A DNA stretch of 64,000 nucleotides. Source: an uncultured Bacteroidota bacterium. GTDB lineage: Bacteria > Bacteroidota > Bacteroidia > Bacteroidales > P3. Numbering within the stretch: position 1 is the first letter of the stretch; each line of letters begins with the position of its first letter. Shown here one piece after another: positions 1 to 64,000 of this stretch. The DNA lies in NCBI GenBank assembly GCA_902776365.1, contig CACYPU010000001.1, forward strand, positions 408,325 through 472,324. The letters run 5' to 3'. The notes under the pieces are model-generated. The model was not told where the DNA came from, made no database searches, and saw only the letters and a list, made by a program, of their open reading frames with translations. A program made the translations under genes and the position numbers.

Positions 1-137
1 TTGAACATAGCATTCCCTTCCAATAACACAATATCAACCCTCTCACTAGCAGAGAAGGTGAAGCGAGTGAAGAATTTTGTGTATTATATCGAATGCAGTA
101 AATAGGTCCTCCTGTTTGTCTTTTTTTGTCCTTTTTA

Positions 138-180
138 GACTCTAATGAAACTCTCATGTAAGTCTCACTTGGGTCTCACC
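138..180. repeat. degenerate tandem repeat, about 11-12 bp period
   Basis: Four imperfect copies of a word built on ACTCTCAT / GTCTCACTT lie in tandem in the leader region upstream of gyrA. The rest of positions 1-390 holds no convincing gene: the only long reading frame there is a minus-strand frame without family features, which I treat as chance. Confidence 0.45.
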
Positions 181-280
181 TACCAATTTGCCGACAAAAA
201 CATATCGCCTCCCATCGGTAGGCACGCCGAGGGTAAAAAAAAGGCCGTCTACTAGGCATCAAATTAGTGTCTTGTGCATT

Positions 281-319
281 TGTTGTTCGCTTGTTGTTCG
301 CTTTTAAAGCGAACAACAA
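281..319. promoter_or_regulatory. 14-bp perfect inverted repeat upstream of gyrA
   Basis: Positions 291-304 (TTGTTGTTCGCTTT) are the exact reverse complement of 306-319, with a single central base. The ten bases TGTTGTTCGC also occur directly before it at 281-290, so the site is one direct copy plus a palindrome. It could be an operator, a recombination site or a hairpin. No T-run follows, so it is not a standard terminator. Confidence 0.5.
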
Positions 320-391
320 ATGATTTTTCAAGGGTTCGAGGCCCTTAAAGGCAGAATGTTCGCTCAGTGTTGATAAAAAAGCAGATTTCTT

Positions 392-422
392 TTTGGTATG
401 TCGAAAAAAAATTGTATCTTTG
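392..422 (+). promoter_or_regulatory. gyrA promoter, Bacteroidota type
   Basis: TTTG at 392-395 is followed after exactly 19 bases by TATCTTTG at 415-422. This fits the Bacteroidota sigma-A consensus (TTTG about -33, TAnnTTTG about -7). It lies 73 bases before the gyrA ATG and predicts a leader of roughly 65 bases. Confidence 0.75.
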
Positions 423-495
423 TTTTTTAGTGCAAGGGTGAGGTGTGGATATAATAATTTAGTATACAATAATATAATATAATAACGAACTACTG

Positions 496-9506: not shown

Positions 9507-9541
9507 AATTAACTATTATCTATTAACTATTATCTATTATC
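9507..9541. repeat. heptamer tract CTATTAT/CTATTAA between pyrB and pyrI
   Basis: The whole pyrB-pyrI spacer is made of the CTATTAT-type seven-base word. This is the commonest family in the window; other copies are at 39391, 45850, 47101, 48588, 50030 and 56750. Confidence 0.75.
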
Positions 9542-10454
9542 TGACACCTAAAATGGCGGCCATGAGAGCTTGGCGGACGTAGACGCCGTTCTGAGCCTGC
9601 TGGAAGTAATAGGCGTAGGGGGTGGAGTCGACGTCGGTGGTGATTTCGTTGACGCGGGGCAGCGGGTGGAGGATGCGCATGTTCTCCTTGCAGCCCTTGA
9701 GCATGTCGGCGGTGAGGATGCAGGAGTCTTTCACGCGCTCATACTCCATGGGATCAGGGAAGCGCTCGCGCTGCACGCGGGTCATATAGATGATGTCGGC
9801 GGTGGGGATGACGTCGCGGAGGTCGGTGTACTGATAGTATTTCAGGCCTGCATCCTTGATGCTCATCTTGACGGAGGAGGGCAATTTGAGCTCCTGTGGC
9901 GAGACGAGATGGAAGGTGGCGTTGAAGTTGCACATGGCCTGCACGAGGGAGTGGACGGTGCGGCCGTACTTGAGGTCGCCCACCATAGCAATCTGCAGGT
10001 TGTCGAGAGTGCCCTGGGTCTTGCGGATGCTGTAGAGGTCGAGCATGCATTGGGTGGGGTGCTGGTTGGCGCCGTCGCCGGCGTTGATGACGGGCACCGA
10101 TGCCACCTCGGAGGCGTAGCGCGAGGAGCCCTCCTTGGGGTTGCGCATGACGATGAGGTCGCTGTAGGAGGAGACCATCACGATGGTGTCGTGCAGGCTC
10201 TCGCCTTTTTGGACGCTGGTGCCACCCGGGTCGGAGAAGCCAATAATGCGGGCGCCAAGCTGGTTGGCGGCACTCTCAAAACTCAAGCGGGTACGTGTCG
10301 ACGGCTCGAAGAAAAGCGTTGCCACCACCTTGTCGCTCAAGATTTTCTGTTTTGGATTCTTTTCGAATCCCTCGGCGATGTCCAGCACCTGGATGTATTC
10401 CTCTTTTGAGAAATCGGTGATGGAAATCAGGTTGCGTCCTTTTAAACTACTCAT
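9537..10454 (-). CDS. pyrB: aspartate carbamoyltransferase catalytic subunit
   Basis: PyrB joins carbamoyl phosphate and aspartate to N-carbamoylaspartate. The 305-residue protein carries the carbamoyl-phosphate signature FEPSTRTRLSFE (residues about 50-61) and HPTQ (about 132-135). The aspartate-domain motif HPLPRVNEI is near residue 262. pyrI follows directly, forming the dodecameric allosteric enzyme. The last bases lie inside the CTATTAT repeat tract. Confidence 0.96.
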   Translation of the reverse strand: MSSLKGRNLISITDFSKEEYIQVLDIAEGFEKNPKQKILSDKVVATLFFEPSTRTRLSFESAANQLGARIIGFSDPGGTSVQKGESLHDTIVMVSSYSDLIVMRNPKEGSSRYASEVASVPVINAGDGANQHPTQCMLDLYSIRKTQGTLDNLQIAMVGDLKYGRTVHSLVQAMCNFNATFHLVSPQELKLPSSVKMSIKDAGLKYYQYTDLRDVIPTADIIYMTRVQRERFPDPMEYERVKDSCILTADMLKGCKENMRILHPLPRVNEITTDVDSTPYAYYFQQAQNGVYVRQALMAAILGVR

Positions 10455-16397: not shown

Positions 16398-16955
16398 TTA
16401 ACCGATAGCTTGACGGATGCGGGCGGCGATGTCCTCGATGGTACCGAGGCCGTCGACGATGCGCTGCTTGCCCTGCTTGGCGTAGTAGTCGGCCACAGGC
16501 TTGGTCTTGTTGTTGTACTCCTGGAGGCGGTTGTTGATGGTGGCCTCGTTGTCGTCGGCGCGGCCTTGAATCTTGGCGCGTTCGAGGAGTCGGCGCATCA
16601 GCTCGTCCTTGGGGACCTCGAGCTGCACCATGCAGGTGAGCTCACGACCGTGTTTGGCCAGCAGTTTGTCGAGGGTTTCGGCCTGTGCTACGGTGCGGGG
16701 GAAGCCGTCGAAGAGCATGCCCTTCTGGTCGGCAGCGATGGCATTGTCCATCATTTCGACGACGATGTCGTCGCTGACGAGCTGGCCGTTGTCCATGATG
16801 CTTTTGATGCGGAGGCCTAGCTCGGTCTTGTCGGCAATCTCCTTGCGGAGGAGGTCGCCGGTGGAGACGTGTGTGAGGCCGTAGGTCTCGACTATGAAGT
16901 CGCTCTGGGTGCCTTTGCCGGCCCCGGGAGCTCCGAAAATAACGATATTTTTCAT
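16398..16955 (-). CDS. adk: adenylate kinase, short form
   Basis: Adenylate kinase interconverts ATP+AMP and 2 ADP. The 185-residue protein has P-loop GAPGAGKGTQ (8-17), THVSTGDLLR, the AMP-site FDGFPRT and the short LID ERAKIQGRADDNEATINNRL. The zinc LID of longer forms is absent. A second, divergent adk is at 47269-47922. Heptamer tracts GTTTAAA/GGTTAAC follow its start region (16957-16987). Confidence 0.95.
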   Translation of the reverse strand: MKNIVIFGAPGAGKGTQSDFIVETYGLTHVSTGDLLRKEIADKTELGLRIKSIMDNGQLVSDDIVVEMMDNAIAADQKGMLFDGFPRTVAQAETLDKLLAKHGRELTCMVQLEVPKDELMRRLLERAKIQGRADDNEATINNRLQEYNNKTKPVADYYAKQGKQRIVDGLGTIEDIAARIRQAIG

Positions 16956-16956
16956 A

Positions 16957-17065
16957 AAGTTTAAAGTTTAAAGTTTAACGGTTAACGGAGACGCTACGCA
17001 GTCGAATTGTCGAAAACGTGATGCGGCAGCTTTTCTTTAAACGTTAACCTTTAACCGTTAACCAT
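16957..17065. repeat. two heptamer tracts flanking a spacer (GTTTAAA / GGTTAAC)
   Basis: 16957-16987 reads GTTTAAA three times and then GTTAACG. 17038-17065 carries the reverse complement words (ACGTTAACC, TTTAACCGTTAACC). The pair could form a long imperfect hairpin spanning the adk-FKBP spacer. Confidence 0.65.
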
Positions 17066-17982
17066 TACTTAACTGAGATAATTTCGATGTCGAACACCAG
17101 GGGAGAGTAGGGGGGGATGACGTCGCCGAATCCGCGGCTGCCGTAGGCCTCCTTCGAGGGGATGACCAGCTGCAGCACGGTGCCGACATTCTGGTTGAGG
17201 AGACCCTTGTCCCAGCCGGCAATCACCTCGGCGATACCAATCTTGAAGGTGAAGGGCTCGTATTTGCGGCGGCTGTCGTAGACCTCGCCGGAGCGGGCGT
17301 CGCTCTCCACGCTGCTGTCGAAGATGGTGCCGTCGAGCAGACGGCCGGTGTAGTTCACCGTCACCTCCTTGCCAATGGTCACTTTGGGACCCTTGCCCTG
17401 CTTCTTCACCACGATATAGATGCCGTCGGCGGTGGGCTTGGCGGTAATCTTGTTCTCGGTGATGTAGTTCTGAAGGTCTTCGGGCTCTTCCTGCTCCATC
17501 TGGCGCATGTTCTCCACCCAGTTGTTCTGCTCCTGGAGGATCTCATCGCGAGTCACGATGTCCTGCAGGTTGATCTGGTAGTAGAACTTCTGACCGCTGC
17601 CGGGCTTGTAGTTGGTGGGCATCTGGTCGTTGTTCAGATAGCTGGCCAGGACGTCGGCATCGAGAGCGAAGGTGGCGATTTCGCCCACATGCATCTTCAG
17701 CAGGCCTTCACCCACCTTGCCTTCCCAGCCGGGGTTGGCGGTGACCAGGCGCTTCACATTGCCTTTGGTGTCGTAGATGACGGAGTCTTCGAACTTCACG
17801 GTCATCTCGCCCACCAGCACGTCGCCTTCCTGCACCTGCTGGCCGTTGGGGTTGGATTGTTCGACCATGTAGGAGAGTCCTTCGGAAATCTCCTGATATT
17901 CGCCCTTGTTCTCACTGTTGCAAGCGACCATCATCGCTGTGCCGGCCACCATCAAGGCGGCCCATTTCATGCTGTGTCTCAT
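17065..17982 (-). CDS. FKBP-type peptidyl-prolyl isomerase lipoprotein, tandem copy 1
   Basis: This 305-residue lipoprotein (VAGTAMMVACNSEN, Cys about 21) has two FKBP-like parts: a degenerate N-terminal one (about 25-125, EGDVLVGEMTVKFEDSVIYD) and a C-terminal FKBP (about 185-305, VTVNYTGRLLDGTIFDSS, VIAGWDKGLL). It probably helps fold periplasmic or outer-membrane proteins. The next gene upstream encodes a paralogue of identical length, so this is a tandem duplication. Confidence 0.9.
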   Translation of the reverse strand: MRHSMKWAALMVAGTAMMVACNSENKGEYQEISEGLSYMVEQSNPNGQQVQEGDVLVGEMTVKFEDSVIYDTKGNVKRLVTANPGWEGKVGEGLLKMHVGEIATFALDADVLASYLNNDQMPTNYKPGSGQKFYYQINLQDIVTRDEILQEQNNWVENMRQMEQEEPEDLQNYITENKITAKPTADGIYIVVKKQGKGPKVTIGKEVTVNYTGRLLDGTIFDSSVESDARSGEVYDSRRKYEPFTFKIGIAEVIAGWDKGLLNQNVGTVLQLVIPSKEAYGSRGFGDVIPPYSPLVFDIEIISVK

Positions 17983-18920: not shown

Positions 18921-19466
18921 CTAATTATTGATTTTTACTACTTCGATGTAGTATATCAGCACCCATCGTTTGCCTATGCGGTTGCCGTCGCCGGGAACGC
19001 CGTAGGCCTCTTCCGATGGCAGTATCACCGTTGCGCGGCAGCCCTCGTTCAGGGTGCGCAGGGCGAAGTCCACGCCGCGGTTCGGCTGCAGGCGGCCAAT
19101 CACCACGGTGTCGTCCACATTTTCGTAGACCACCTTGTCCTCGATATTCCTCACGGTATAGCGGATGGCAACGGTGTCGTTGTAGTCGGCCACAGGCCCA
19201 TTGCCCTCGCGGGTCTTCATCACCTTGATGCCCGACCCAATGTCGGTCATCGTCCAATTTCTGCGTGCGGCGAAGTTCTCTATGTCGGTGCTCTCGCGCT
19301 GCGCCAGCATGCGGTTGGTGTTGATGAGGTCCACATCTGTCGTCGACGGTTTCTTCTGCTGCACCTCGATTACGGGCACATCGTTACACGAAATGAAAAG
19401 TGAAAAGTGAAAAGTGAAAATGAGGAGGGTGACGAGTAGGCCCAGGTGTTTCTTGACTTTTTTCAC
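18921..19466 (-). CDS. possible separate FKBP lipoprotein starting at an internal GTG
   Basis: This is the alternative reading of the 3' third of the fused frame. Starting at GTG 19464-19466 the product has a Lys-rich n-region, a 13-residue hydrophobic core and a lipobox-like LFISC, then an FKBP domain (VAIRYTVRNIEDKVVYENVD, LPSEEAYGVPG). That is exactly the design of the two downstream FKBP lipoproteins. The DHH domain would naturally end a few residues after this GTG. Confidence 0.5.
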   Translation of the reverse strand: MKKVKKHLGLLVTLLIFTFHFSLFISCNDVPVIEVQQKKPSTTDVDLINTNRMLAQRESTDIENFAARRNWTMTDIGSGIKVMKTREGNGPVADYNDTVAIRYTVRNIEDKVVYENVDDTVVIGRLQPNRGVDFALRTLNEGCRATVILPSEEAYGVPGDGNRIGKRWVLIYYIEVVKINN

Positions 19467-36652: not shown

Positions 36653-36695
36653 TTTATAGATAACATAGATAACAATGATTATAAATAAAACAGCA

Positions 36696-43629: not shown

Positions 43630-43631
43630 TA

Positions 43632-44618: not shown

Positions 44619-44652
44619 GAGGTAAGAACTAAGAAGTAAGAAGTAAGAGGTG
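44618..44652. repeat. heptamer tract AAGAAGT supplying a GTG start
   Basis: AAGAGGT, AAGAACT, AAGAAGT, AAGAAGT, AAGAGGT and then G. The last unit provides the GTG start of the permease gene. Confidence 0.8.
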
Positions 44653-45831: not shown

Positions 45832-45884
45832 GAATGCGTTAATGCGTTATAACTATTATCTATAATCTATTATCTATTAACTTG
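45817..45884. repeat. composite tract AGAATTA + GCGTTAAT + CTATTAT
   Basis: Three word families follow one another with no unique sequence between. The tract contains the stop region of permease 1 and the TTG start of permease 2. Confidence 0.8.
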
Positions 45885-47082: not shown

Positions 47083-47268
47083 CCACCCCACTTAACCCTA
47101 ACTCTTAACTATTATCTTTTAACTCTTAACTACCATGAATCACCTCCTCAACTCTTAACTATTATCTATTATCTATTAACTCTTAACTACCATTTAAACC
47201 TCTCAAACCTCTCAAACCTTTTCAACCTCTCAAACCCCTTAAACTTTAAACTTTAACCGTTATACATT
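47083..47268. repeat. spacer made almost wholly of repeats, with a 92-bp copy shared with 48588-48680
   Basis: 47101-47192 matches 48588-48680 with four differences by eye. It is followed by the nine-base word CTCAAACCT (47200-47235) and by CTTTAAA words. The shared block contains the codons for the C-terminal LLNS-stop of the downstream HAM1 gene, which suggests it was copied from there. Confidence 0.8.
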
Positions 47269-47922
47269 ATGATAAACATCGTCATTTTCGGCGCTCCCGG
47301 CGCAGGCAAAGGAACCCAGGCCAAACTTCTGGCCGAGAAATACGACTTCCTGCATATCTCCACCGGCGATTTGTTGCGGCAAGAAGTGTCCATGGAAACT
47401 CCCGTGGGACTTAGAGCGAAGGCTATAATGAATCGTGGCGATTTGGTGGGTGACGATATCGTCGTGTCGCTACTTGGACGAGCCCTCGAGCTGCGCTCCA
47501 CCCTGCCCGACCCCGACGCCGTCCTCGACCCCTGGGATGTGGAACGCAACGGCAAACCCCATCGTCCTCAAGGTTGCATCATAGACGGTTTCCCCCGCAC
47601 CGTCTCACAGGCACAGACGCTAGAGTTCCTTTTTGGAAAACTGAAACGCAAAATCGACTCTGTCGTCGCCATCGACGTGCCCCGCGACGAACTTGTGAAA
47701 CGCATCCACGAGCGTGCTGCCATCAGTGGTCGTGCCGACGATACCGAAGAGGTAATCCGTCACCGTCTGGACCTCTACGACCAACAGACGACGCCTGTGC
47801 TGGACTACTATCGGGTCTCGGGTCTCTTAGTCACCGTGGACGGTAGCGGTGAGATAGCCGAAACAAATGGCCGCATCTGCCAGACGCTCGATATCGTCAT
47901 GCACCTAAAAGCCAAACATTAA
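47269..47922 (+). CDS. second adenylate kinase-like protein
   Basis: The 217-residue nucleoside monophosphate kinase has P-loop GAPGAGKGTQAKLL, HISTGDLLR, IDGFPRT and the short LID ERAAISGRADDTEEVIRHRL. Compared with the 185-residue adk at 16398 it carries an insert of about 30 residues (ELRSTLPDPDAVLDPWDV and following) before the GFPRT region. It may have changed substrate preference. Confidence 0.88.
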   Translation: MINIVIFGAPGAGKGTQAKLLAEKYDFLHISTGDLLRQEVSMETPVGLRAKAIMNRGDLVGDDIVVSLLGRALELRSTLPDPDAVLDPWDVERNGKPHRPQGCIIDGFPRTVSQAQTLEFLFGKLKRKIDSVVAIDVPRDELVKRIHERAAISGRADDTEEVIRHRLDLYDQQTTPVLDYYRVSGLLVTVDGSGEIAETNGRICQTLDIVMHLKAKH

Positions 47923-47990
47923 ACCTCTCAAACCTTTCAAACCTCTCAACCCCCTTTAAACTTTAACCTTTAACCGTTAACCGTTATACA
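47923..47990. repeat. CTCAAACCT + TTTAACC + GTTAACC tract
   Basis: The nine-base word AAACCTCTC is followed by heptamers of the TTTAACC/CGTTAAC family. Same succession as 47200-47268. Confidence 0.75.
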
Positions 47991-47992
47991 CT

Positions 47993-48595
47993 ATGCGACG
48001 ACTCATCTTTGCCACCAACAACAAACACAAAGTCACCGAGGTGCGTGCTGCACTCTCGAGTATTGACGATATAGAGATTGTCACACTGGCAGAGGCCGGC
48101 CTGGAAGGCGAGATCCCCGAAACCGCCGACACCCTCCACGGCAACGCACACCAAAAAGCCCTCTGGGTTTGGGAACGCACCCATACCGACTGCTTCGCCG
48201 ACGACACCGGCCTCGAAGTCGACGCCCTAGGCGGCGCACCTGGCGTCTACTCCGCACGCTACGCCGGCCCCCACTGCTCCTTTGACGACAACATCGACAA
48301 ACTCCTCGCCAACCTCCACGGCAAAGAAAACCGCAAAGCCCACTTCCGCACCGTCATCTGCCTCATTGAAGGCCACTCTCAGTCACTACCCACTACCCAC
48401 TACTTCGAAGGCCGTGTCGACGGGCAGATCCTCACCTCCCGCCACTCCAACGGCCAAGGTTTCGGCTACGACCCCCTCTTCATGCCCGACCGCTTCGCCC
48501 TCTCCTTCGCCGAAATGCCACTCCAACTAAAAAACACCATCAGCCACCGCGCCCTCGCCGTCAAAAAACTCAAAGACTACCTCCTCAACTCTTAA
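47993..48595 (+). CDS. rdgB: non-canonical purine NTP pyrophosphatase (HAM1/RdgB type)
   Basis: It removes dITP, ITP and XTP from the nucleotide pool. The 200-residue protein has the N-terminal FATNNKHKVTEV, the catalytic DDTGLEVDALGGAPGVYSARYAG and the C-terminal SHRALAVKKL. An insert HSQSLPTTHY is encoded by CTACCCA heptamers (48380-48404). The C-terminal LLNS and stop lie in a repeat block. Confidence 0.93.
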   Translation: MRRLIFATNNKHKVTEVRAALSSIDDIEIVTLAEAGLEGEIPETADTLHGNAHQKALWVWERTHTDCFADDTGLEVDALGGAPGVYSARYAGPHCSFDDNIDKLLANLHGKENRKAHFRTVICLIEGHSQSLPTTHYFEGRVDGQILTSRHSNGQGFGYDPLFMPDRFALSFAEMPLQLKNTISHRALAVKKLKDYLLNS

Positions 48596-48680
48596 CTATT
48601 ATCTTTTAACTCTTAACTACCATAGATTACCTCCTCAACCCTTAACTATTATCTATTATCTATTAACTCTTAACTACCAT
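48588..48680. repeat. 92-bp composite repeat, copy 2
   Basis: It spans the HAM1 3' end to the ATG of the DUF151 gene and contains two tandem copies of a roughly 50-bp unit beginning CCTCCTCAAC. It matches 47101-47192 with four differences. Confidence 0.8.
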
Positions 48681-49215: not shown

Positions 49216-50033
49216 TTGACTATAAACAAACTGCAGACTTCCTGCGCAATGAGTTCCGCCTTGCCCGCAAAGAAATGCCACAAGTGGCCATCATTTTGGG
49301 CAGCGGCTTGGGCAAGCTGGCCGACAAAATAGAGAATCCCCTCATTCTCCCCTACTCCGCCATCCCGCACTTCCCCACCTCCACTGCCGTTGGTCACAAA
49401 GGCAACCTCATCGTCGGCACCCTCGGCCGAAAAAACGTGCTCGCCATGCAAGGACGCTTCCACTACTACGAGGGCTACTCGATGGAGCAGGTAACCCTCC
49501 CCGAGCGCGTCTTTGCCTTGCTGGGCATCAAAACCGTGCTGGTGAGCAACGCCGCCGGTGCCGTCAACCCCGACTTCCGCGTCGGCGACCTCATGGTCAT
49601 CACTGACCATATCAACCTCATGCCCAACCCCTTGCTAGGCCCTAACAAAGAAAACTTCGGCCCCCGATTCCCCGATATGACCGAACCCTACAGCCTCCGT
49701 CTGCGCAATATCGCCCACAAAGTAGCCAGCGAACTGAAAATCAACCTTCGCGAGGGCGTCTATGTAGCCGGCACAGGCCCCACCTACGAAACCCGCGCCG
49801 AATACAAGATGTACCGCTTCATCGGCGGCGACGCCTGCGGCATGTCCACGGTGCCCGAGGTCATCGTGGCCCGCCACTGCGGCATGGAAGTCTTCGGCAT
49901 GAGCGTCATCACAAACCAGTCCGCCGACCTCGGCAACGGCACCCTGAACGATGGCGACGACGTCGTCCGTGCCGCCGACCAAGCAGCCGACCAGATGACA
50001 CTCCTCTTCTCAAAAATAATCCTCAACTCTTAA
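49212..50033 (+). CDS. purine nucleoside phosphorylase
   Basis: A trimeric-type PNP that cleaves inosine/guanosine with phosphate. The 273-residue protein has ILGSGLGKLAD, MQGRFHYYEGYS, VSNAAGAVN and the purine-site GTGPTYETRAE. The C-terminal ILNS-stop shares sequence with the HAM1 C-terminus through the repeat. It is translationally coupled to the DUF151 gene; together with rdgB the cluster handles purines. Confidence 0.94.
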   Translation: MIDYKQTADFLRNEFRLARKEMPQVAIILGSGLGKLADKIENPLILPYSAIPHFPTSTAVGHKGNLIVGTLGRKNVLAMQGRFHYYEGYSMEQVTLPERVFALLGIKTVLVSNAAGAVNPDFRVGDLMVITDHINLMPNPLLGPNKENFGPRFPDMTEPYSLRLRNIAHKVASELKINLREGVYVAGTGPTYETRAEYKMYRFIGGDACGMSTVPEVIVARHCGMEVFGMSVITNQSADLGNGTLNDGDDVVRAADQAADQMTLLFSKIILNS

Positions 50034-50069
50034 CTATTATCTCTTAACTATTATCTCTTAACTATTTCC
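50024..50069. repeat. heptamer tract CTCTTAA/CTATTAT
   Basis: CTCTTAA and CTATTAT alternate (14-base dimer), covering the PNP stop and the whole spacer. Confidence 0.8.
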
Positions 50070-50994: not shown

Positions 50995-51825
50995 ATGAAA
51001 AATCATACGTCCCAGCACTCCCCAGCACTCCCCAGCACCCCCCTGCATCCCCAAAATATCAAGGCTGCCTTTTTCGACATCGACGGCACACTCCTCAGCT
51101 TCACCACACACCGCGTCTCCCCCGGCACCGTGCGGGCCTTCGAACATCTGCACCGCGCCGGCATCCGCACATTCCTCTCCACTGGCCGCCCCGACATCCT
51201 CATACCCGACATGCCCGTCTCCTTCGACGGCAAAATCACCATGAACGGAGGACTCGTATTCACGCCCAATGAGGTCCTGCTGAGTAACCCTATCAGCGAC
51301 GCGGAACTTCAAGCATGGCTTGATTTGGCAAAGGATAAACACCTCTGCACCATGGTATTCACTAAGGACAATATGTTCCTTGCACAACCCAATGAAATAG
51401 GCCTCAAACTGCGCAACCAACTCGAATTTGAGATGCCGCCCGTCGTCGGCATCGACCGCATGCGCTCTGAAACCGTCTACCAGATTATCGCCATCATGCC
51501 CGGCGATATGGACGACTCCGTCAACCAACTCCTCCCCCACTGCCGCCTGCCGCGCTGGCACCCCTACTTCACCGACATCGTGGCCGAGGACAACAGCAAG
51601 GCCCGCGGCATGGAAGCCATCTGCCGCCACTTCGGCATCCGTCAAGAAGAAACCCTCGCCTTCGGCGACGGCGCCAACGACATCGAAATGCTCGAATGGG
51701 CCGGCATCGGCGTGGCTATGGGCAACGCAGCAGATAACGTCAAAGAGCACGCCGACCTCGTCACCTCCGACGTCGACAACGAAGGAATAGAGAAGGTAGT
51801 TAATAAGATAATAGTTGATAGATAA
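50995..51825 (+). CDS. Cof-type HAD hydrolase
   Basis: The 276-residue sugar-phosphate or FMN phosphatase-type HAD protein has AAFFDIDGTLL (motif I), TGRP, and motif IV FGDGANDIEMLEW. The first 22 residues (QHSPALPSTPLHPQ) are encoded by a ten-base repeat CAGCACTCCC (51008-51052) and are not part of the fold. Confidence 0.9.
   Translation: MKNHTSQHSPALPSTPLHPQNIKAAFFDIDGTLLSFTTHRVSPGTVRAFEHLHRAGIRTFLSTGRPDILIPDMPVSFDGKITMNGGLVFTPNEVLLSNPISDAELQAWLDLAKDKHLCTMVFTKDNMFLAQPNEIGLKLRNQLEFEMPPVVGIDRMRSETVYQIIAIMPGDMDDSVNQLLPHCRLPRWHPYFTDIVAEDNSKARGMEAICRHFGIRQEETLAFGDGANDIEMLEWAGIGVAMGNAADNVKEHADLVTSDVDNEGIEKVVNKIIVDR
51008..51052. repeat. ten-base tract CAGCACTCCC at the 5' end of the Cof gene
   Basis: CAGCACTCCC twice, then CAGCACCCCC. 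The GCACTCC family also occurs at 56398-56480 and 62072-62118. Confidence 0.8.
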
Positions 51826-52049: not shown

Positions 52050-53463
52050 AATAATTATATTGCTGCTGGTCATCGCTTCGGTCATCATTGTCATCTCCGA
52101 GAACCGCAAGCCCTACCTCTCCGTCTTCTGGATAATGTTCATCGTCCTCCTGCCGGGTGTGGGTATCGCCTTCTACTTCCTCCTCGGCAAAGACTACCGC
52201 GGTCGCCGCACCATCAAAGCCGACGAACTCGCACGCCTCGACGCCCTGCGCGACAACGCCGTCGGCGACGCCATCCTCCCCCAGCCCCCCAACGACAAAT
52301 ACCGTAAACTCGCCGACATGATGCGCAACGCCAACGACACCCCGCTCCTTCAGGGCAACCAGGTGCGCATCTTCACCGACTTCACCCCCATGTTCGAGGC
52401 CATGCTCGACGACATCGCCTCGGCCAAAGAATTCATACATATCCAGTTCTATATCGTTGAAAACGACGAGGTGGGGCAGCAGCTCAGCGACCTCCTCATC
52501 CGCAAGGCCGCCGAAGGCGTCGACGTCCGCCTCATGTACGACAGCTGCGCCAACCTCTTCGTCCACAGCCGCTACTACGACCGCATGCGCCACAACGGCG
52601 TCCACGTCAAATCCTTCCAAAAATTCCTCCCCGCACTCTTCAATCGCGAAGTCAATTGCCGCACCCACCGTAAAATCGTCGTCATCGACGGCCATACCGC
52701 CTACACTGGCGGCATGAACATCGCCCGCCGCTACCGTGACGGCATCAACCACGGCGTCTGGCGCGACACACAGATACGCCTCCAAGGACCCGCCGTCGCC
52801 CAGCTCGAGGTCTCCTTTCTCTCCGACTGGCGCTTCTGCACCAAGAAACTCCTCGACCAACCCCGCTTCTTCCCCAATTCAAACACTAACGCAATCAAGC
52901 AATCAAGCAATAACGCAATCACACAGATTGTCACCTCCGGCCCCATGGACGAATGGAACACCGTCATGCAAGGCCTCGTACAGATTATGGCTCAAAGCCA
53001 GAAATACCTCTACATACAGACCCCCTACTTCACGCCGCCCCACCCCGTACTCCTCGCCATCCGTAATGCCGCCCTCGCCGGTGTCGACGTCCGCCTGATG
53101 GTCCCCGCTACCTCCGACCGCGGCGCCATCACACGCCTCGCCACCCAGTCCTACTTCCGTGACCTCCTCCCCGCCGGAGTGAAAATCTATCTCTACCACA
53201 ACGGATTCCTACACGCCAAAACCATCGTCTGCGACGACGACTTCACCACCATAGGCTCCACCAACCTCGACCCCCGCAGCCTCGAGCAGAACTTCGAAGT
53301 CAACGCCTTCATCTACGACGGCGACATCGCCATCCGCCAGCGCGACATCTTCCTCGACGACCAGCAGCACTGCTCCCTCGTCGACCCCCTCCGCTGGCAG
53401 CATCGCCCCCGTCTCCAGAAGTTCCTCGAATCCTCCGCCCGCATCCTCACCCCCATCCTATAG
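52036..53463 (+). CDS. cls: cardiolipin synthase
   Basis: This membrane phospholipase-D-type enzyme joins two phosphatidylglycerols. Two N-terminal helices are followed by two HKD motifs: HRKIVVIDGHTAYTGG (about residue 214) and HAKTIVCDDDFTTIGSTN (about 395). I chose the ATG at 52036, where MPIYRIIILLLV begins the first helix. An insert NSNTNAIKQSSNNAIT is encoded by an eight-base repeat GCAATCAA (52883-52925). Confidence 0.93.
   Translation: MPIYRIIILLLVIASVIIVISENRKPYLSVFWIMFIVLLPGVGIAFYFLLGKDYRGRRTIKADELARLDALRDNAVGDAILPQPPNDKYRKLADMMRNANDTPLLQGNQVRIFTDFTPMFEAMLDDIASAKEFIHIQFYIVENDEVGQQLSDLLIRKAAEGVDVRLMYDSCANLFVHSRYYDRMRHNGVHVKSFQKFLPALFNREVNCRTHRKIVVIDGHTAYTGGMNIARRYRDGINHGVWRDTQIRLQGPAVAQLEVSFLSDWRFCTKKLLDQPRFFPNSNTNAIKQSSNNAITQIVTSGPMDEWNTVMQGLVQIMAQSQKYLYIQTPYFTPPHPVLLAIRNAALAGVDVRLMVPATSDRGAITRLATQSYFRDLLPAGVKIYLYHNGFLHAKTIVCDDDFTTIGSTNLDPRSLEQNFEVNAFIYDGDIAIRQRDIFLDDQQHCSLVDPLRWQHRPRLQKFLESSARILTPIL
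52883..52925. repeat. eight-base tract GCAATCAA inside cls
   Basis: GCAATCAA, GCAATCAA, GCAATAAC, GCAATCAC in frame, just before VTSGPMDEW. Confidence 0.8.
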
Positions 53464-54855: not shown

Positions 54856-55593
54856 TTATCGTGAAGCTATCATAACAGCCTTGCGGGGGGAGAGGTTGTG
54901 GCGGATGAACTTGGCCACGGGAGTTTCCTCGACCCATTCGGCGGCGATGTCGCGGAGCCGGGGACGGGAGTTGTCATAGACGATGAGGGTGTTGGTGTAG
55001 ATGGTGTCGGGAGCAGGAACATAGACGATGAGACTCTCCGATGGAATCGCCGTGGGGACTACAGAGGGTTCCTCCTGCGGCAGCAGCGGCAGAGTGTTCT
55101 CTTCCTGGGCAATCAGCAGAGGCTCCTCGGGGACGATGGTTTCTATAATATCTATTGTTCTTATAGTATCTATGGGCTTTATAGTTTTTTTTGGAGTACC
55201 TGGAATATTCGGTGTGCTCAGATCGCTCGCGGTTGTAGTGGCGGCGACCAGCTGTGGTTCCTGGGGCTCGAGCTGCCCCATAGTGCCCATACGGAAAGCA
55301 GGAAGCATGAAGGCGACGAGGATGGCGGCAGCGGCGCTCCAGCGCAGGAAAGGTGAAAGGTGAGAGGTGAACTGTGGTCGGCGACCTTGTGGAGCCAAAG
55401 GTAAAAGGCGCGTATACCGGACGCTCTCGTCGCACTCCAGCCGCGGAGCCTCGCTGTAGAGCGCCAGTTCCTCGGCGGCCTCGGGGTGGTCGGCGAGCCA
55501 GGCCTCCACCTCAGCACGTTCTATGTCGGAGAGCTGTCCCTCAGCATACTGCAGGAGGAAAACCTCGTAGTTGGTGTCATTTATCGTTGTCAT
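54856..55593 (-). CDS. anti-sigma-factor-like membrane protein
   Basis: The 245-residue protein has a cytoplasmic N-terminus with a zinc-less anti-sigma helical pattern (LLQYAEGQLSDIERAEVEAWL), one membrane helix (WSAAAAILVAFMLPAF, about 90-105), and a Pro/Thr-rich periplasmic part. The linker QFTSHLSPF before the helix comes from a TCACCTTTC heptamer tract (55337-55372). It overlaps the sigma gene by 17 bases. Confidence 0.8.
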   Translation of the reverse strand: MTTINDTNYEVFLLQYAEGQLSDIERAEVEAWLADHPEAAEELALYSEAPRLECDESVRYTRLLPLAPQGRRPQFTSHLSPFLRWSAAAAILVAFMLPAFRMGTMGQLEPQEPQLVAATTTASDLSTPNIPGTPKKTIKPIDTIRTIDIIETIVPEEPLLIAQEENTLPLLPQEEPSVVPTAIPSESLIVYVPAPDTIYTNTLIVYDNSRPRLRDIAAEWVEETPVAKFIRHNLSPRKAVMIASR

Positions 55594-56147: not shown

Positions 56148-56750
56148 TTACAAAAGATGTTCGAGAAGGATTTTCACACCCAGCCCCAGAAGGACCAGAC
56201 CGGCGATGATGTTGGCCGTGCGCTCCGGGACGGGGATATTGCGCTTGCCGAGGTACACGCCCAGTAGAGAGACCAATGTGGTGACGATACCGATGGTGGC
56301 GACAATCCACAGGACGGTAGTCAGCGGATTATCCAAGCCGAGACCGATGCCGACGGCAAAAGCGTCGATGCTGGTGGCGACACCTAAAACGAAAAAGGAG
56401 TACAAGGGAGTGCGAGGGAGTGCCGGGGAGTGCGAGACGTTACTATTGTCTTGCACTCCTTTGCACTCCTTGCACTCCTTACTACTTTCAATAATCATCT
56501 TTCCTCCGATGAAGGCAAGTAGGCCAAACGCTATCCAGTGGTCGACAGCCTCGATGAACTCGCGGGCCACGTCGCCTATCAGGGCACCAGCCAAAGGGAA
56601 TGCCCCCTGACAGAGGCCGAAGATGAGAGCCATCAGCAATCCCCGACGGTAGGTCATCTTAGTGCGGAACGCCGTAGTGGTGCTCACCACCAGGGAGTCG
56701 ACACAGAGTGCCAGAGCCAATAACAACGCTTCTACAAATCCCATAACCAT
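56148..56750 (-). CDS. mntP: manganese efflux pump MntP
   Basis: The 200-residue six-helix exporter has the two inverted halves LALALCVDSLVVS and GVATSIDAFAVGIG, carrying the conserved Asp residues. The central cytoplasmic loop is enlarged by SKECKECKGVQDNSNVSHSP and neighbours, encoded by GCACTCC-type repeats (56398-56480). The ATG at 56744 is an equal start candidate. Confidence 0.9.
   Translation of the reverse strand: MVMGFVEALLLALALCVDSLVVSTTTAFRTKMTYRRGLLMALIFGLCQGAFPLAGALIGDVAREFIEAVDHWIAFGLLAFIGGKMIIESSKECKECKGVQDNSNVSHSPALPRTPLYSFFVLGVATSIDAFAVGIGLGLDNPLTTVLWIVATIGIVTTLVSLLGVYLGKRNIPVPERTANIIAGLVLLGLGVKILLEHLL
56398..56480. repeat. GGGAGTGC / TTGCACTCC inverted tracts inside mntP
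   Basis: The left part repeats GGGAGTGCGA; the right part repeats TTGCACTCC (three units). They are complementary across the middle of the gene. Confidence 0.8.
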
Positions 56751-56778
56751 TATCTCTTAACTATTATCTTTTATCTTT
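56745..56778. repeat. heptamer tract CTATTAT/CTCTTAA at the mntP start
   Basis: It fills the spacer and covers the stop region of the ATP-grasp-like gene. Confidence 0.7.
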
Positions 56779-57641
56779 TCATGTGCCACCATACCCATCG
56801 TGTGGCGGAAGTTGATTTCGGCGACGTGGACGCTGCCGTCGGCACAGACCATCAGGTCGACGCCGAGAGGTCCACGGTAGCGGGGCCAGACATTGGCGGC
56901 CAGCCAGGCTTCCACTCGCTCGCGAGCCTCACGGACAGGGAATGCTGCCTCAATCTGCTCATCCTTCCACAAGACGTTCTCTTTGTACACGCCGCTGCCT
57001 GTTCGGAAGTAGGAGTAGCCAAGGAAAGTGGGCAGCATACGGGAACAAGTGCTACCAACTACCCACTGTCCACTATCCACTCTATATTCCAACGCCACAT
57101 CAGCCACTACCTCGCGGCGCGGCTCCGCTATCACGCAACGCTGCGAGGCGATGGTCTTCACTATCCAGTCGCGGTCGATGGGTGTGAGGCTGCCATGCAC
57201 CCAGCGCAGTCCCCTACCCGCCCCCGACCAAGGCGCCTTCATCACCCAGTGCTCGCGTTTTTTTAATAATGATTCCATATATTCTATGGAGCGCACATCG
57301 TGGCAGTCCTCCTGCAGGGGGAGCACCGTGGAGCGGTGCTGCAGTTCGCGGATGGTGTTGATTTCCTCGTCGGAGGGCAGCAGCGACTCTTCTATGCCTC
57401 TCTTCTGCAGTTCATGTTTCACCACAGCATCCCAGCCCCAGGCAACGACTTCGTCTAATTGAAAATTCAAAAATGAAAATTGAAAATCATAGACAGAAGT
57501 ACAGACGGCATTGGGATAGAGCACGGACATGATGTTCGCGTCGCGGCGGGCAAAGTCGACGGCCGAGCGCGGCGGGACATAATGAGCACGACCTTTGGCT
57601 AGGCAAAGATCGTGCTCAGGGTTGAAGATGCAGAGTTGCAT
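56757..57641 (-). CDS. ATP-grasp-like protein of unknown function
   Basis: The 294-residue protein starts MQLCIFNPEHDLCLA and has ATP-grasp-like stretches: WVMKAPWSGAGRGLRWV (phosphate-binding loop type) and GPLGVDLMVCADGSVHVAEINFR (metal-ligand strand). Conserved in Bacteroidales, with no assigned ligand. Two repeat inserts: DFQFSFLNFQLD (57453-57490, GAAAATT heptamers) and DSGQWVVGST (57050-57090, CTACCCA-type). Confidence 0.65.
   Translation of the reverse strand: MQLCIFNPEHDLCLAKGRAHYVPPRSAVDFARRDANIMSVLYPNAVCTSVYDFQFSFLNFQLDEVVAWGWDAVVKHELQKRGIEESLLPSDEEINTIRELQHRSTVLPLQEDCHDVRSIEYMESLLKKREHWVMKAPWSGAGRGLRWVHGSLTPIDRDWIVKTIASQRCVIAEPRREVVADVALEYRVDSGQWVVGSTCSRMLPTFLGYSYFRTGSGVYKENVLWKDEQIEAAFPVREARERVEAWLAANVWPRYRGPLGVDLMVCADGSVHVAEINFRHTMGMVAHEKIKDNS
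57453..57490. repeat. heptamer tract GAAAATT inside the ATP-grasp-like gene
   Basis: GAAAATT, CAAAAAT, GAAAATT, GAAAATC in frame. Confidence 0.75.
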
Positions 57642-60732: not shown

Positions 60733-60803
60733 AATATGAAAAGTGAAAAATGAAAAGCGAAACGGCGTTGTTTTCACTTTTCACTTTTCATTTTTCACTT
60801 CAA
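60733..60803. repeat. inverted heptamer tracts GAAAAGT / ACTTTTC after tpiA
   Basis: The left half repeats GAAAAGT/GAAAAAT and the right half repeats TTTTCAC. Together they form a long imperfect hairpin that may stop transcription before the LolC/E-like gene. Confidence 0.75.
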
Positions 60804-60807: not shown

Positions 60808-62058
60808 ATGAATTTCGAACGGTTCATAGCAAAGCGGTTCATGCCGCGAAGCAAAGACGGCGGGGGCTTTTCGGGGCCCCTGTCCGTCATTGCTGTCGCC
60901 AGCATCGCCCTCGGCGTGCTTGTTATGGTCATGGCCGTCAGCATCCTCCGCGGCTTCCAGGGCGAAATCGCCGGCAAAGTTGTCGGCTTCGGAAGCCACC
61001 TTACCGTCAGCAACTACGCCATCAACCCCAACTACCAGGAACAGCCCGTCACCATCGACAACGCCCTCGCCGCCACCCTGCGCTCCACGCCGGGAGTCAA
61101 GCACCTGCAGAGCTTCGCCACCAAAGGCGGCATGGTGAAAACCAAAGAGCAAATCTATGGCATCCTGCTGCGGGGTCTCAGCGCCGACTACGACACCTCC
61201 TTCTTCCACGAGAACCTCGTCGAAGGACACCTTCCAAACCTCTCACCTCTCACCTCTCACCTTTCACCTTCCAACGACGTCCTCATCTCCAGCACCATAG
61301 CACGCAAGCTTGGCCTCAAAGTGGGCGACAAACTGCGCACCTATTTCTGGCAGGACCAAGGCTACCGCTCCCGCGCCTTCCTCATCTCCGGCATCTACAA
61401 CACCGACCTCCCCGAAGTCGACGAGCTCTATGTCGTCGGCGACATCCGCCAAGTCCAGAAACTCAACGACTGGGACAGCAACCAGGTCGGCGGCTACGAG
61501 CTGCTGGTCGACGATTTCGGCCAACTGGACCAGATGCAGAAAACCGTCCTCGAGATACTCACCGACTACAACCGCTACGACCTCACCGCCCACTCCATCC
61601 GCGACGCCTACCCCGCCCTCTTCGCCTGGCTCGACCTTCTCAACAGCAACATCACTCTCATACTCATCATTATGAGCATCGTCTGTGCTGTCGCCATCGT
61701 CTCCGCGCTCCTCATCATGATTTTCGAGAAAAGCCGCACCATCGGCCTCCTCAAAGCCCTCGGCGCCAGCAATGCCTCCGTGCGCCGCATCTTCATCCTC
61801 AAAGCCTCGCACCTTATCCTCCAAGGCATCGGCATCGGCATCGCCCTCTCCACCGCCCTCTGCTTCGTGCAGTCGAAATGGCAGCTCATCGAACTCAACC
61901 CCGAAAGCTACCACATGAGCCACGTGCCCGTCGACACCGACCCCTGGATATTCATCCTCATCAGCCTCTCCACCGCTCTCGTCTGCCTCCTCGCACTCCT
62001 CCTCCCCGCCGCCTACATCAGCCGCATCAGCCCCGCGAAAACAATCAAGACCGAATAA
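60808..62058 (+). CDS. LolC/LolE-type ABC permease (FtsX/MacB family)
   Basis: A 416-residue inner-membrane permease for lipoprotein release: N-terminal helix (LSVIAVASIALGVLVMVMAV), a periplasmic MacB-like domain, and three C-terminal helices (ILIIMSIVCAVAIVSALLIM). An insert NLSPLTSHLSPS is encoded by the heptamer TCTCACC (61240-61275). The LolD ATPase is not adjacent. Confidence 0.88.
   Translation: MNFERFIAKRFMPRSKDGGGFSGPLSVIAVASIALGVLVMVMAVSILRGFQGEIAGKVVGFGSHLTVSNYAINPNYQEQPVTIDNALAATLRSTPGVKHLQSFATKGGMVKTKEQIYGILLRGLSADYDTSFFHENLVEGHLPNLSPLTSHLSPSNDVLISSTIARKLGLKVGDKLRTYFWQDQGYRSRAFLISGIYNTDLPEVDELYVVGDIRQVQKLNDWDSNQVGGYELLVDDFGQLDQMQKTVLEILTDYNRYDLTAHSIRDAYPALFAWLDLLNSNITLILIIMSIVCAVAIVSALLIMIFEKSRTIGLLKALGASNASVRRIFILKASHLILQGIGIGIALSTALCFVQSKWQLIELNPESYHMSHVPVDTDPWIFILISLSTALVCLLALLLPAAYISRISPAKTIKTE
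61240..61275. repeat. heptamer tract TCTCACC inside the LolC/E gene
   Basis: TCTCACC three times, then TTTCACC, in frame in the periplasmic domain. Confidence 0.85.
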
Positions 62059-62071: not shown

Positions 62072-62118
62072 TTGCACTCCCTGCACTCCATGGCACTCCC
62101 CTGCACTCCCCAAAAAAT
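62072..62118. repeat. TGCACTCCC tract in the LolC/E-kinase spacer
   Basis: TGCACTCCC, TGCACTCCA, TGGCACTCCCC, TGCACTCCCC. The spacer has no other content. Confidence 0.8.
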
Positions 62119-62127
62119 ATCTCCAAA

Positions 62128-63615
62128 ATGAAACAAAAACTCAAACTCATACTACTGCTGCTCTCCATCGTGCTGGCACTCTTCGCACTGTGGCAGGTCG
62201 AGAACGTCGCCCAGCAAGTGCGCCAGTCCGAAGAATCGAAGATTCGCCTCTGGGCCAACGCCATCGCCCAGCGCAACCGCATGACCTCCGTCACCCACCA
62301 GTTCTTCCAGGAAGCCACCCTCGACGAACAGCGCAAAATACGCCTCTACACCGATATCCTCGAATCCTTCAACGACCCCGACCAGTCGACAGACCTCCGC
62401 TTCAGCCTCGCCTACGTCAACTACATCGTCGACAGCGCCAAAACACCCATCATCATTACCCGCGACGACTCCGTCATCACCGTCCCCAGCGAACTCGCCG
62501 GACAGAAGCTCCAAGGCTCCCTGCTCAAGGAATACTCCTCCAACCCACCCTTCCACTACCGCCTCTGGGGCATGCCTATGACGCTCTACTATAAGGAGTC
62601 TCAAAACTACACCCAGCTGCGCGACATGCTCTCCAGCTTCTCGCGCTCCTTCATGGAGGAAATCACCAACAACTCCGTTATCGTCCCCGTCGTCATCGTC
62701 GACAGCTGCCGCTCACACCTCATCGCACATGGCAATATCGACCCCTCCGACATCGACACCCCCGACAAGCTCGCCAGCCGCCTCCAGTCCATGGAAAGCA
62801 TGAACGACCCCATCGAAATCGCACTCCCCGACAACAGCACCGCCTACATCTACTACGAGAACTCCCAGCTCCTCAAGACCCTCCGCTGGGTTCCCCTCTT
62901 CTACTTCTTCATCGCCCTCGTGCTCCTCATCGTCGCCTACTACCTCTTCCGCACCACCCGCACCATGGAGCAGAACCGCATCTGGGTAGGCCTCGCCAAA
63001 GAAACCGCTCACCAGCTTGGCACACCCATCTCCTCACTCACCGGCTGGACTCAATACCTCCGCGGCAAGGAATTCTCCGACCAGTACGCCTGCGAGGTCG
63101 AGAAAGACCTCCAACGTCTCGAAACCATCACCCACCGCTTCTCCAAGATAGGCTCCGTCCCCGAACTGCAGGACGAGAACGTCCGCGACGCCGTCGAGAG
63201 CGCCATCAACTACCTCCAGAGCCGCGCACCAAAGAAGGTGAAATTCGTCCTTTCCTTCCCCGACGACGAGACCTTCATCGCACCCCTCAACTCCTACCTC
63301 TTCCAATGGGTCATCGAAAACCTCTGCAAAAATTCGATAGATGCGATGGAAGGCTCCGGCACCATCACCATCGTCGCCTCCCAGGACGCCCGCACCATCT
63401 ACCTCGACGTTAGCGACACCGGACGCGGCATGAGCAAATCCGTCCAGCGCAAAATCTTCGACTCGGGCTTCACCACCAAGTCGCGCGGTTGGGGGCTCGG
63501 CCTGCCGCTGGCCCGCCGCATCGTCAACCAGTACCACCGCGGACGCCTCTACCTCAAATACTCCGTCCCCGGCCAGGGCACCTGCTTCCGCATCGAGCTG
63601 AACAAGAAACGGTAA
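62128..63615 (+). CDS. sensor histidine kinase
   Basis: The 495-residue two-helix membrane kinase (helices near residues 5-22 and 255-275) has a periplasmic sensor of about 230 residues. The H-box is ETAHQLGTPISSLTGW (His about 293), the N-box NLCKNSIDAM, the G-boxes DTGRGM and GWGLGLPLA. No response regulator is next to it, so it is an orphan here. Such kinases commonly follow envelope genes in Bacteroidales. Confidence 0.92.
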   Translation: MKQKLKLILLLLSIVLALFALWQVENVAQQVRQSEESKIRLWANAIAQRNRMTSVTHQFFQEATLDEQRKIRLYTDILESFNDPDQSTDLRFSLAYVNYIVDSAKTPIIITRDDSVITVPSELAGQKLQGSLLKEYSSNPPFHYRLWGMPMTLYYKESQNYTQLRDMLSSFSRSFMEEITNNSVIVPVVIVDSCRSHLIAHGNIDPSDIDTPDKLASRLQSMESMNDPIEIALPDNSTAYIYYENSQLLKTLRWVPLFYFFIALVLLIVAYYLFRTTRTMEQNRIWVGLAKETAHQLGTPISSLTGWTQYLRGKEFSDQYACEVEKDLQRLETITHRFSKIGSVPELQDENVRDAVESAINYLQSRAPKKVKFVLSFPDDETFIAPLNSYLFQWVIENLCKNSIDAMEGSGTITIVASQDARTIYLDVSDTGRGMSKSVQRKIFDSGFTTKSRGWGLGLPLARRIVNQYHRGRLYLKYSVPGQGTCFRIELNKKR

Positions 63616-63616
63616 A

Positions 63617-63652
63617 TCCCTCTTAATTCTTAATTCTTAACTCTAAACTCTA
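63617..63652. repeat. heptamer tract TTAATTC/TTAACTC/TAAACTC
   Basis: Units on a seven-base grid. It is the complement of the AGAGTTA family and abuts dispersed repeat copy B. Confidence 0.8.
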
Positions 63653-63654
63653 AA

Positions 63655-63763
63655 CCGCCCCTCCTCAGAACAGGACGCCCACATCCTCCCTTTCTTCCAA
63701 ACCGTTGGAAGTATCGGAAGCCCCTCCCTCCTCGGCCTTCGAGCAGCCGACGAAGAGCAGAAC
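63655..63763 (-). repeat. dispersed inverted repeat, copy B (small lipoprotein-like remnant)
   Basis: The reverse complement matches 20739-20850 with two visible substitutions. On the minus strand it encodes LPFFVLLFVGC then SKAEEGGASDTSNGLEERED, but no start codon precedes it, so this copy is also not an intact gene. Confidence 0.8.
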
Positions 63764-63905
63764 AAAAAACGGTAGGCTGTTTATATTTTTTTTAGTTATT
63801 CTATATTATTGATACTAACACATTCTCGCATCCACACATTCCCACATTCATATTGTCGTTTTCAATTTGCAAAGATACAAAATCTTTTTGGATTAGGATG
63901 AATGT

Positions 63906-64000
63906 TTACTCAGATTGCTCGTAGTAATACGAATAATCGATGCCCTTCATGAAGATCTCGCGGTCGTCGATGCGGTCGGTCAATGCTTGTTTCAGCAGGT
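63906..64000 (-). CDS. 3' end of an unidentified gene
   Basis: The last 31 codons before a TAA, cut by the window edge. The C-terminal residues read ALTDRIDDREIFMKG then IDYSYYYEQSE. The regular codon use suggests a real gene. I do not recognise the protein. Confidence 0.65.
   Translation of the reverse strand, partial: LLKQALTDRIDDREIFMKGIDYSYYYEQSE

Follow-up and report, generated by a model that had tools for sequence, protein, structure and literature searches.

A 64,000-nucleotide stretch, hereafter the window, of the genome of an uncultured Bacteroidota bacterium (GTDB lineage Bacteroidales; P3; assembly GCA_902776365.1, contig CACYPU010000001.1, forward-strand positions 408,325 to 472,324) is rich in short, degenerate tandem tracts, most often with a seven-base unit, and the same repeat words recur at distant loci, in spacers and inside genes, more often than composition predicts. 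The reading that we favour, with a probability of roughly one half, is that slippage lengthens the tracts and that pieces of them are copied to new sites by short-homology template switching. The origin of heptad repeats in scattered bacteria is not agreed, and this genus makes the choice between slippage and copying directly testable. Some of its species are rich in tracts and others apparently free of them, word choice is biased by species, the same regions of proteins and RNA have been invaded more than once, and each tract class has its own strong polarity. Additionally, it shows one way for repeat words to become new stretches of protein in housekeeping genes.

The genome that holds the window, here G000, is a draft of 2.23 Mb in 18 contigs, 89.65% complete. 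Its small signal recognition particle RNA family and its AtpD mark it as Bacteroidales; the AtpD matches are of 97, 96 and 91% to the uncultured Bacteroidales assemblies RUG156, RUG197 and RUG360, which we take to be rumen genomes and which may be the same as some of the genomes sampled here. G numbers denote sampled genomes and L numbers sampled stretches or loci. Certain stretches were chosen around matches of one word: five of the 20 from G000 (L013, L015, L016, L025, L028), most of those from G007, and the only stretch, or one stretch, of G021 (L065), G057, G059, G063 and G067. They are absent from the figures for word sharing within and between species, 20-mers, coding words, word networks and gene matches. 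They are included in the densities of 31 genomes, in the stop-side and start-side polarity and stop-triplet counts and in the inverted-pair count over 268 neighbouring pairs, and are separated in the final one; those of G000 also enter the 464 kb tally, the early G-minus-C polarity count, the early start-side sample and the gene-position listing. Many congener samples are small (3.7 to 40 kb), and G043 (3.9 kb), G052 (3.1 kb) and G062 (2.6 kb of N) were sampled and later dropped. Gene borders come from our own simple gene caller rather than from annotation, and for the stop-side and start-side polarity the genes of most congeners were called with the G000 model. Orthologous spacers are the gaps between aligned protein ends, with stop codons and unaligned residues counted in.

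Tract excess and shared words

The first-pass annotation had reported at least sixty short tandem tracts, most of them on a seven-base grid with a minority of 8 to 11 bases, and our own list bears this out. It holds 69 non-overlapping tracts of period 5 to 12, against about one in Markov sequence. Thirty-eight have period 7, while periods 8, 9, 10 and 11 contribute 7, 10, 3 and 5 and periods 12, 6 and 5 contribute 3, 2 and 1. The mean number of heptad tracts in 20 order-3 Markov sequences trained on the window was 0.1. Tandem Repeats Finder gave 141 rows at a minimum score of 30, overlapping rows counted, and period 7 accounts for 25 runs with at least 10 matches against 0 expected, the other periods from 2 to 12 having 0 to 6 each. 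In 364 kb of G000 (the window plus 15 stretches picked independently of words) there are 105 heptads, 34 octads and 28, 18 and 23 tracts of periods 9, 10 and 11, the null for each class being 0.7 to 1.0; a 464 kb sample, with 150 heptads, agrees with the window. The grid is degenerate, with mixed words inside single tracts. About one-fifth of the genome was scanned, and over that part both the period-7 excess and a sharing of words above base composition are seen.

The excess is real. An origin in chance, base composition or faulty assembly is very hard to credit: G000 is an incomplete draft in 18 contigs, which speaks for it, but the Markov nulls rule out chance and composition, reading frames are preserved across coding tracts and the pattern is found again in other assemblies.

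Word identity was scored, up to rotation and strand, for tracts separated by more than 1 kb. The chance that two such tracts have the same word is 0.045 in G000 (105 tracts), 0.056 in G002 (160), 0.046 in G008 (25), 0.049 in G072 (82), 0.048 in G023 (25) and 0.257 in G044 (17). Permuted words gave means of 0.0047, 0.0061, 0.0028, 0.0055, 0.0020 and 0.046 in the same order, and random 7-mers about 0.001 or less; sharing at distant loci is 6 to 24 times that of permuted words. Between species the chance is 0.006 to 0.031 among the first five and 0.001 to 0.028 for pairs with G044, and among those five sharing is 1.5 to 8 times higher within species than between. Sharing can thus be divided into a component common to the genus and one particular to the species. 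Almost all distinct words have a neighbour one substitution away: in three species only 2 of 36, 1 of 49 and 3 of 37 are isolated, against mean shares of 19 to 26% in permuted sets, and in each species the observed network lies beyond all 20 permutations. Whole pieces of tract are shared as well. Imperfect 20-mers are common to 34 pairs of distant G000 tracts, in which 37 of the 105 take part, so that mixtures of variants recur in the same order at distant loci, and the exact matches run for 20 to 33 nt and end no more than 1 nt past the tract edge.

The earlier claim that the same words recur at distant loci, in spacers and coding sequence, is confirmed against both the permuted and the random 7-mer nulls. 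That separate loci did not obtain these words independently is well supported by the nulls, by the higher sharing within species and by the occurrence of single words in unalike genes. The copying or seeding process suggested along with that claim stands as our best inference and not as a demonstration, no single copying event having been seen.

Local slippage alone, starting from local 7-mer seeds, favouring purine-rich words and leaving survivors shaped by stop and coding constraints, explains tract growth and may also account for seeds at stop codons. Words common to different species too fit this account, and PMC4679880 credits Mrazek (2007) with the proposal that slippage occurs at 7 nt. 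However, it explains poorly the imperfect mixtures shared in the same order, the different preferred words of species with similar GC content (0.55 in G000, 0.54 in G002) and the presence of the same words in otherwise unalike genes. Moreover, single 7-bp steps within argS, a gene expected to be essential, would presumably pass through frameshifts. For these reasons copying is favoured, and slippage as the sole process seems to us unlikely.

Species-biased words, both orientations and sharp copy ends are also what a templated enzyme would be expected to leave, and a dedicated element or enzyme (a transposase of the type associated with repetitive extragenic palindromes, RAYT; a reverse transcriptase; or another end-extending enzyme) was considered. 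Searches for Y1_Tnp, RVT_1 and MutS covered 76 genomes, the tract-rich G067 and G072 not among them, and none of the three tracks tract density, although absence from a draft is not proof. Y1_Tnp, the RAYT domain expected of repetitive extragenic palindromes and their paired forms (REP/REPIN), has no match in the tract-bearing drafts G008, G014, G057 and G059 and a partial one in G000. RVT_1 is unmatched in drafts G002, G007, G008 and G023. In G000, G002, G007, G008 and G023 MutS is full length and scores above the cut-off, which speaks against a loss of mismatch repair. Within this set of genomes RAYT, reverse transcriptase and MutS loss were accordingly rejected as causes. The many words per genome tell against a dedicated enzyme, which we consider rather improbable, and for the same reason DNA uptake words are unlikely.

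Tracts within genes and RNase P RNA

Forty-eight of the 105 heptads of the unbiased G000 sample lie inside predicted genes. The word is also a spacer word in 27 of the 48 (random coding 7-mers: mean 0.5, maximum 5; permuted: 3.7, maximum 10), and 43 are within one substitution of a spacer word (null 9.6, maximum 18); in G002 the spacer word is present in 48 of 69 coding tracts. In G072 the word AAAGTGG is common to 14 of 26 coding tracts, in 12 genes. For five words, the genes that share them match each other over only 15 to 64 residues, the longest of which may exceed the repeat. Read in sense, coding tracts are pyrimidine-rich rather than purine-rich by 37 to 11 in G000 and 51 to 17 in G002, which we read as avoidance of stop codons, but not in G072 (10 to 16). 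Many tracts lie near gene starts in what by eye are signal-peptide-like stretches, such as FTFHLSPFT.

Thirteen coding regions in nine window genes were aligned with one to ten orthologues each, and seven have an internal in-frame insert of at least 4 amino acids at the tract. The RdgB-like protein is 5 amino acids longer than most orthologues at a CTACCCA tract (48384..48403) encoding LPTTHY. At the same place G002 has its own insert, SDECGVMSDECAIH, encoded by repeats of AGTGATG, which is ACTCATC on the other strand and among the commonest words of that genome. CTACCCA occurs again in an amidohydrolase gene (35941..35979; LPTTHYPLPT), where the insert is about 8 amino acids against the two nearest orthologues and less clear against two distant ones, and at 57052..57081, with a 15-amino-acid insert against one aligned orthologue. 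An 11-mer tract (37130..37171) lies within a 22-amino-acid insert of an ABC substrate-binding protein that is missing in five orthologues, and an ACCTCTC tract (61238..61273) accompanies a 4-amino-acid insert in a LolC-like protein compared with two orthologues. Two coding inserts contain inverted tract pairs, one of 8-mers (GTTGATAC at 37523..37545 and TATCAACC at 37559..37589) and one of a 10-mer (GGAGTGCGAG, 56394..56433) with a 9/10-mer (TTGCACTCC, 56461..56480). Other coding tracts are GAAAAGT at 19391..19420 (LLIFTFHFSLFISC on the minus strand), an 8-mer, GCAATCAA, in the cardiolipin synthase gene (52891..52925) and GAAAGGT at 55348..55370.

Structural RNA is invaded as well. The RNase P RNA of G000 was aligned with those of 17 of 57 other genomes with a match, and four of these 18 species have tracts in variable regions: an 8-mer, AATGCGTT, in G000 and heptads in G001, G023 and G052. 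The G052 tract is at the same place as that of G000, and those of G023 and G001 are in a second variable region, where G023 has an inverted pair. G002 has a 35-nt tandem duplication, and the low threshold used also admits short doublets in G009, G023 (period 12) and G044.

Spacers, polarity and mechanism

Spacers of G000 are about seven times denser per base in heptads than coding sequence (57 in 51 kb against 48 in 313 kb). Where neighbouring genes are conserved, several relatives have a short gap in place of a tract-filled G000 spacer, and in G000, G002 and L119 orthologous spacers are filled with tracts of different words. After the RdgB-like gene G000 has 83 nt, mostly tract: a heptad tract over the stop codon (48584..48618) and one of CTATTAT/CTCTTAA (48633..48675). 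G002 has 36 nt of other repeats there, G024, G009, G015 and G008 have only 2, 5, 5 and 27 nt, and seven further congeners have 20 to 86 nt, most without clear repeats by eye. The spacer after PNP contains CTATTAT/CTCTTAA in G000 (50022..50066) and TAGATAA in G002, and in six others it is 11 to 31 nt long with no evident repeats. Between atpD and atpC, G000 has an inverted pair of 9-mer tracts (GTTAAAAAG, 35106..35144; CCTTTAAAA, 35162..35202), L119 has, by eye, an inverted pair of different words and L121 has 15 nt.

Polarity was scored in twelve pooled genomes as a purine-rich (R) or pyrimidine-rich (Y) coding strand. On the stop side the coding strand is R in 88 cases and Y in 23 in codirectional spacers, and 20 against 2 in convergent ones; mid-spacer tracts in codirectional spacers are R in 65 and Y in 27. 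The sense word contains a stop triplet in 189 of 197 tracts at stop codons, as expected if stop codons seeded them, a point for local slippage. No rule holds in divergent spacers or on the start side of codirectional ones (32 Y, 29 R); a rule of pyrimidine-rich words before starts, 13 against 2 in a small sample, was not upheld with more species.

The stop-side bias could mean that the words converge by selection as functional motifs, acting as stops in all frames, mRNA hairpins or binding sites. Predicted hairpins in three of four folded window pairs (at 40593, z -7.0; 60737, z -4.6; 37505, z -4.8; the pair at 35106 is weak, z -1.6) agree with such a role, as does a similar placement bias of Xanthomonas and Nostoc heptads reported in PMC4692102. 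Against it, congeners differ in words at the same spacer and several have very short, tract-free spacers, the same words occur inside enzyme genes, the purine bias at stop codons is 94 against 18 even where both strands of the word contain a stop, and the start side follows no rule. We regard selection for a motif as the origin of the words as doubtful.

The least expected result is the polarity of inverted pairs. Tracts of period 7 to 10 form 268 neighbouring pairs within 120 bp. The two words are unlike in 172 of them, and 49 pairs are direct and 47 inverted; 39 of the 47 run purine-left/pyrimidine-right, one runs in reverse and 7 are undecided. Counting each tract once leaves 37, 1 and 7, removing the word-chosen stretches 30, 1 and 6, and going outside G000, where the rule was first noticed, 26, 1 and 7. 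Pairs of period 11 are opposite, with 19 pyrimidine-left, 2 purine-left and 2 undecided. Both rules are independent of the strand read. The first count, made by G minus C with 11-mers included, had given 16 against 0 in G000 and 9 against 6 in other genomes, and splitting by period with purine minus pyrimidine revealed the two classes. In the window, inverted heptad pairs are TAAAGTT/TAACGGT (16955..16988) with TTAACCG (17037..17067, containing a stop codon), GGTGAAA (40593..40620) with TTTCACC (40649..40682), and, 3' of the triose-phosphate isomerase stop, GAAAAGT (60737..60762) with TTTTCAC (60771..60800).

Arrays of 11-bp units form a second class of long palindromes with loops of 3 to 5 nt (L011:19783-19871, L012:12828-12916, L024:5009-5097, L017:7607-7695 and others). 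Four that were folded as RNA have z of -8 to -13, and the arms of three are nearly perfect. Their words depend on the species, and the class is present in G045 and G071, small samples without heptads. The window has an 11-mer tract, GGTTAAACAAT, at 38561..38602.

Under the favoured reading, tandem duplication by replication slippage would lengthen tracts, with the bias towards 7 bp arising from the replication or repair machinery itself. Pieces of about 20 to 35 nt of resident tracts would be copied to new sites, in either orientation, when a 3' end, such as one left by a break or a stalled fork, switches template onto a tract through a few matching bases. Selection would then retain copies that do little harm. 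Spacer copies would often overlap a stop codon or follow it closely, the coding strand carrying a purine-rich word that contains a stop. Copies in coding genes would keep the reading frame, take a stop-free orientation and occupy variable stretches, possibly loops, or N termini that resemble signal peptides, and those in structural RNA would fall in variable regions. As words mutate and are replaced, species would drift to their own vocabularies.

Alternatively, the 7-10 bp tracts may mark the healing of ends with purine words, in which case the 11-bp pairs would belong to another system, RNA hairpins or terminators perhaps. A 3' end that is broken or stalled would be extended with purine-rich words from resident tracts or RNA and then joined, much as telomeric repeats heal broken chromosome ends. 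With both ends gaining purine words on the 3' strand, this would yield sharp copy ends, a species vocabulary and purine-left/pyrimidine-right pairs, and it is confined to the 7-10 bp class because the 11-bp class has the opposite sign. We hold this to be a long shot.

Several observations weigh against slippage with template switching. Comparisons were between species, and no event with donor, recipient and empty strain was seen. Sharing between species is well above the nulls, so the vocabulary may come partly from ancestry or mutational preference. The model alone leaves unaccounted for both the preference for 7 bp and the opposite polarity of 7-10 and 11 bp inverted pairs; to account for the polarity it must further assume that the 3' strand being extended is the purine one. 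In G072, just 2 of 26 coding words recur in its own spacers. Four of the 13 coding regions have no net insert: AATTCGG (28121..28152; no net length change) and GAATGTG (29299..29324; aligned with G008) in argS, AATTGAA at 57457..57487 (no real insert) and GTGGTCA at 42984..43029 in a TolC-like gene (SGEWSVASGQWS), each compared with one aligned orthologue. Two more are N-terminal, so that insertion could not be judged: 11 copies of CTACCCA in the ABC substrate-binding protein (36709..36784), where alignments begin downstream, and a 10-mer tract in an HAD hydrolase (51011..51052), where most do.

Other tracts of the window lie in spacers or at gene borders. Stop codons are overlapped by the heptad tract ATTAACTATTATCT (9508..9542, between pyrI-like and pyrB-like genes), AAGTTTA (30343..30371), AGAATTA (45817..45835), the 9-mer AAACCTCTC (47921..47955) and TTATCTC (56750..56779). 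TAACGGT begins at a stop codon at 36613..36659 and lies immediately 3' of the argS stop at 29600..29631; AGAAGTA (44616..44651) also begins at a stop codon and is absent from the L119 spacer. CTATTAT lies between two minus-strand genes at 39393..39422 and reaches a predicted start codon at 45850..45882. Further spacer tracts are GTTTAGA/GTTAAGA (20850..20894), AAAAATG (24047..24079), AGTGGGT (24096..24133), AGAGTTA (43598..43630; the orthologous L119 spacer is also repeat-filled, with other words), TAACTCT/TAACTAT (47099..47131), CTATTAT/CTCTTAA (47147..47188, similar to the tract at 48633-48675), AAACCTCTC again (47196..47244), TTTAACC (47954..47986), the 10-mer GCACTCCCC (62083..62111) and TCTTAAT/TCTAAAC (63621..63655). 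TTAAACT (47239..47270) is 5' of the second of two adenylate kinase genes (16398-16955 and 47269-47922; 185 and 217 amino acids); this second gene has additional sequence close to a CCCGAC repeat (47506-47532). The adjacent genes 17065-17982 and 18004-18831 have similar N-terminal text and look like a tandem duplicate; the first matches FKBP-type isomerase families. A Bacteroidales small signal recognition particle RNA lies at 23881-23987 on the minus strand.

Distribution and known systems

Heptad density among 31 sampled genomes, which include G000 and the three RUG assemblies, ranges from 77 per 100 kb down to none. The highest values are 77 in G067 (11.6 kb, chosen by word hit), 40 in G002 (400 kb) and 39 in G007 (mostly hit-chosen), followed by 32 in G000, 26 in G072 (320 kb), 16 in G008 and 14 in both G023 and G044; it is 0 in 11 genomes, with samples of 3.7 to 60 kb. 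The genus is patchy, with tract-rich and apparently tract-free species. One degenerate word, searched with at most one mismatch in 99 whole genomes, has 175 matches in G072, 140 in G007, 128 in G008 and 114 in G000; 25 of 58 congeners have no match, and counts do not exceed 6 in the 40 genomes of other families. Its reversed control, itself a heptad word, has 96 matches in G040, of another family, and 407 in G044, where the first word has none. The 120 kb sample of G044 (L067, L099-L103) holds mainly AAAAACT tracts despite those 407 matches. A PNP tree with 2 of 17 inner branches well supported shows only that tract-rich species form no obvious single clade. Of 90 loci, 1.41 Mb in all, that were taken to lie beyond the genus, 62 are free of heptads; the average over the set is 4.1 per 100 kb. 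A few Bacteroidota contigs there are rich, L169, L132 and L154 having 7, 7 and 6 tracts in 12-21 kb, so the heptad habit recurs in the phylum. The papers listed in searches of an open-licence library included none on such repeats in this genus. Rickettsia palindromic elements are likewise repeats inserted in frame into genes; they are longer palindromes.

The parallel drawn in the first-pass annotation with the short tandemly repeated repetitive (STRR) sequences of cyanobacteria is fair, down to tracts in RNase P RNA. Vioque (1997) reportedly describes STRR in RNase P RNA genes. The features found here that mark STRR-type repeats are a heptad excess of 38 over 0.1, the same words at many dispersed loci and occurrence in RNase P RNA, and degenerate 7-bp tandem repeats in structural RNA are common to both. 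According to PMC3488679, such repeats in the Nostoc tRNA-Leu intron (P6b) differ in copy number and adopt a hairpin fold. Unlike STRR, the present tracts are in a different phylum and use many words per genome, differing between congeners. Tracts here also lie in frame within coding genes.

Long simple sequence repeats (LSSR; Mrazek et al. 2007, as described in PMC4679880) have units of 1 to 11 nt, with heptads the commonest class in most genomes, and slippage was proposed for them; the present tracts, in contrast, are short and degenerate, and their word sharing, coding and RNA inserts and polarity are measured here. PMC4692102 describes one G-rich word type (GGGAATC / GGGGA(C/T)T) in Xanthomonas and Nostoc with a strong non-coding bias, whereas our genus has many words and many coding tracts, and the upstream half of the rule given there was not found in it. 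The TAACTGA direct repeats that PMC4679880 reports from Beggiatoaceae, cyanobacteria and five Bacteroidetes are also heptads at gene borders, and the corresponding spacers of some relatives are also shorter and repeat-free. They consist of one word, however, and membership of that family was rejected, exact doublets occurring in none of 276 loci and none in the window even with one mismatch. The tracts described here form an STRR/LSSR-like system, of the kind known from Nostoc, Xanthomonas and Beggiatoaceae, with new features.

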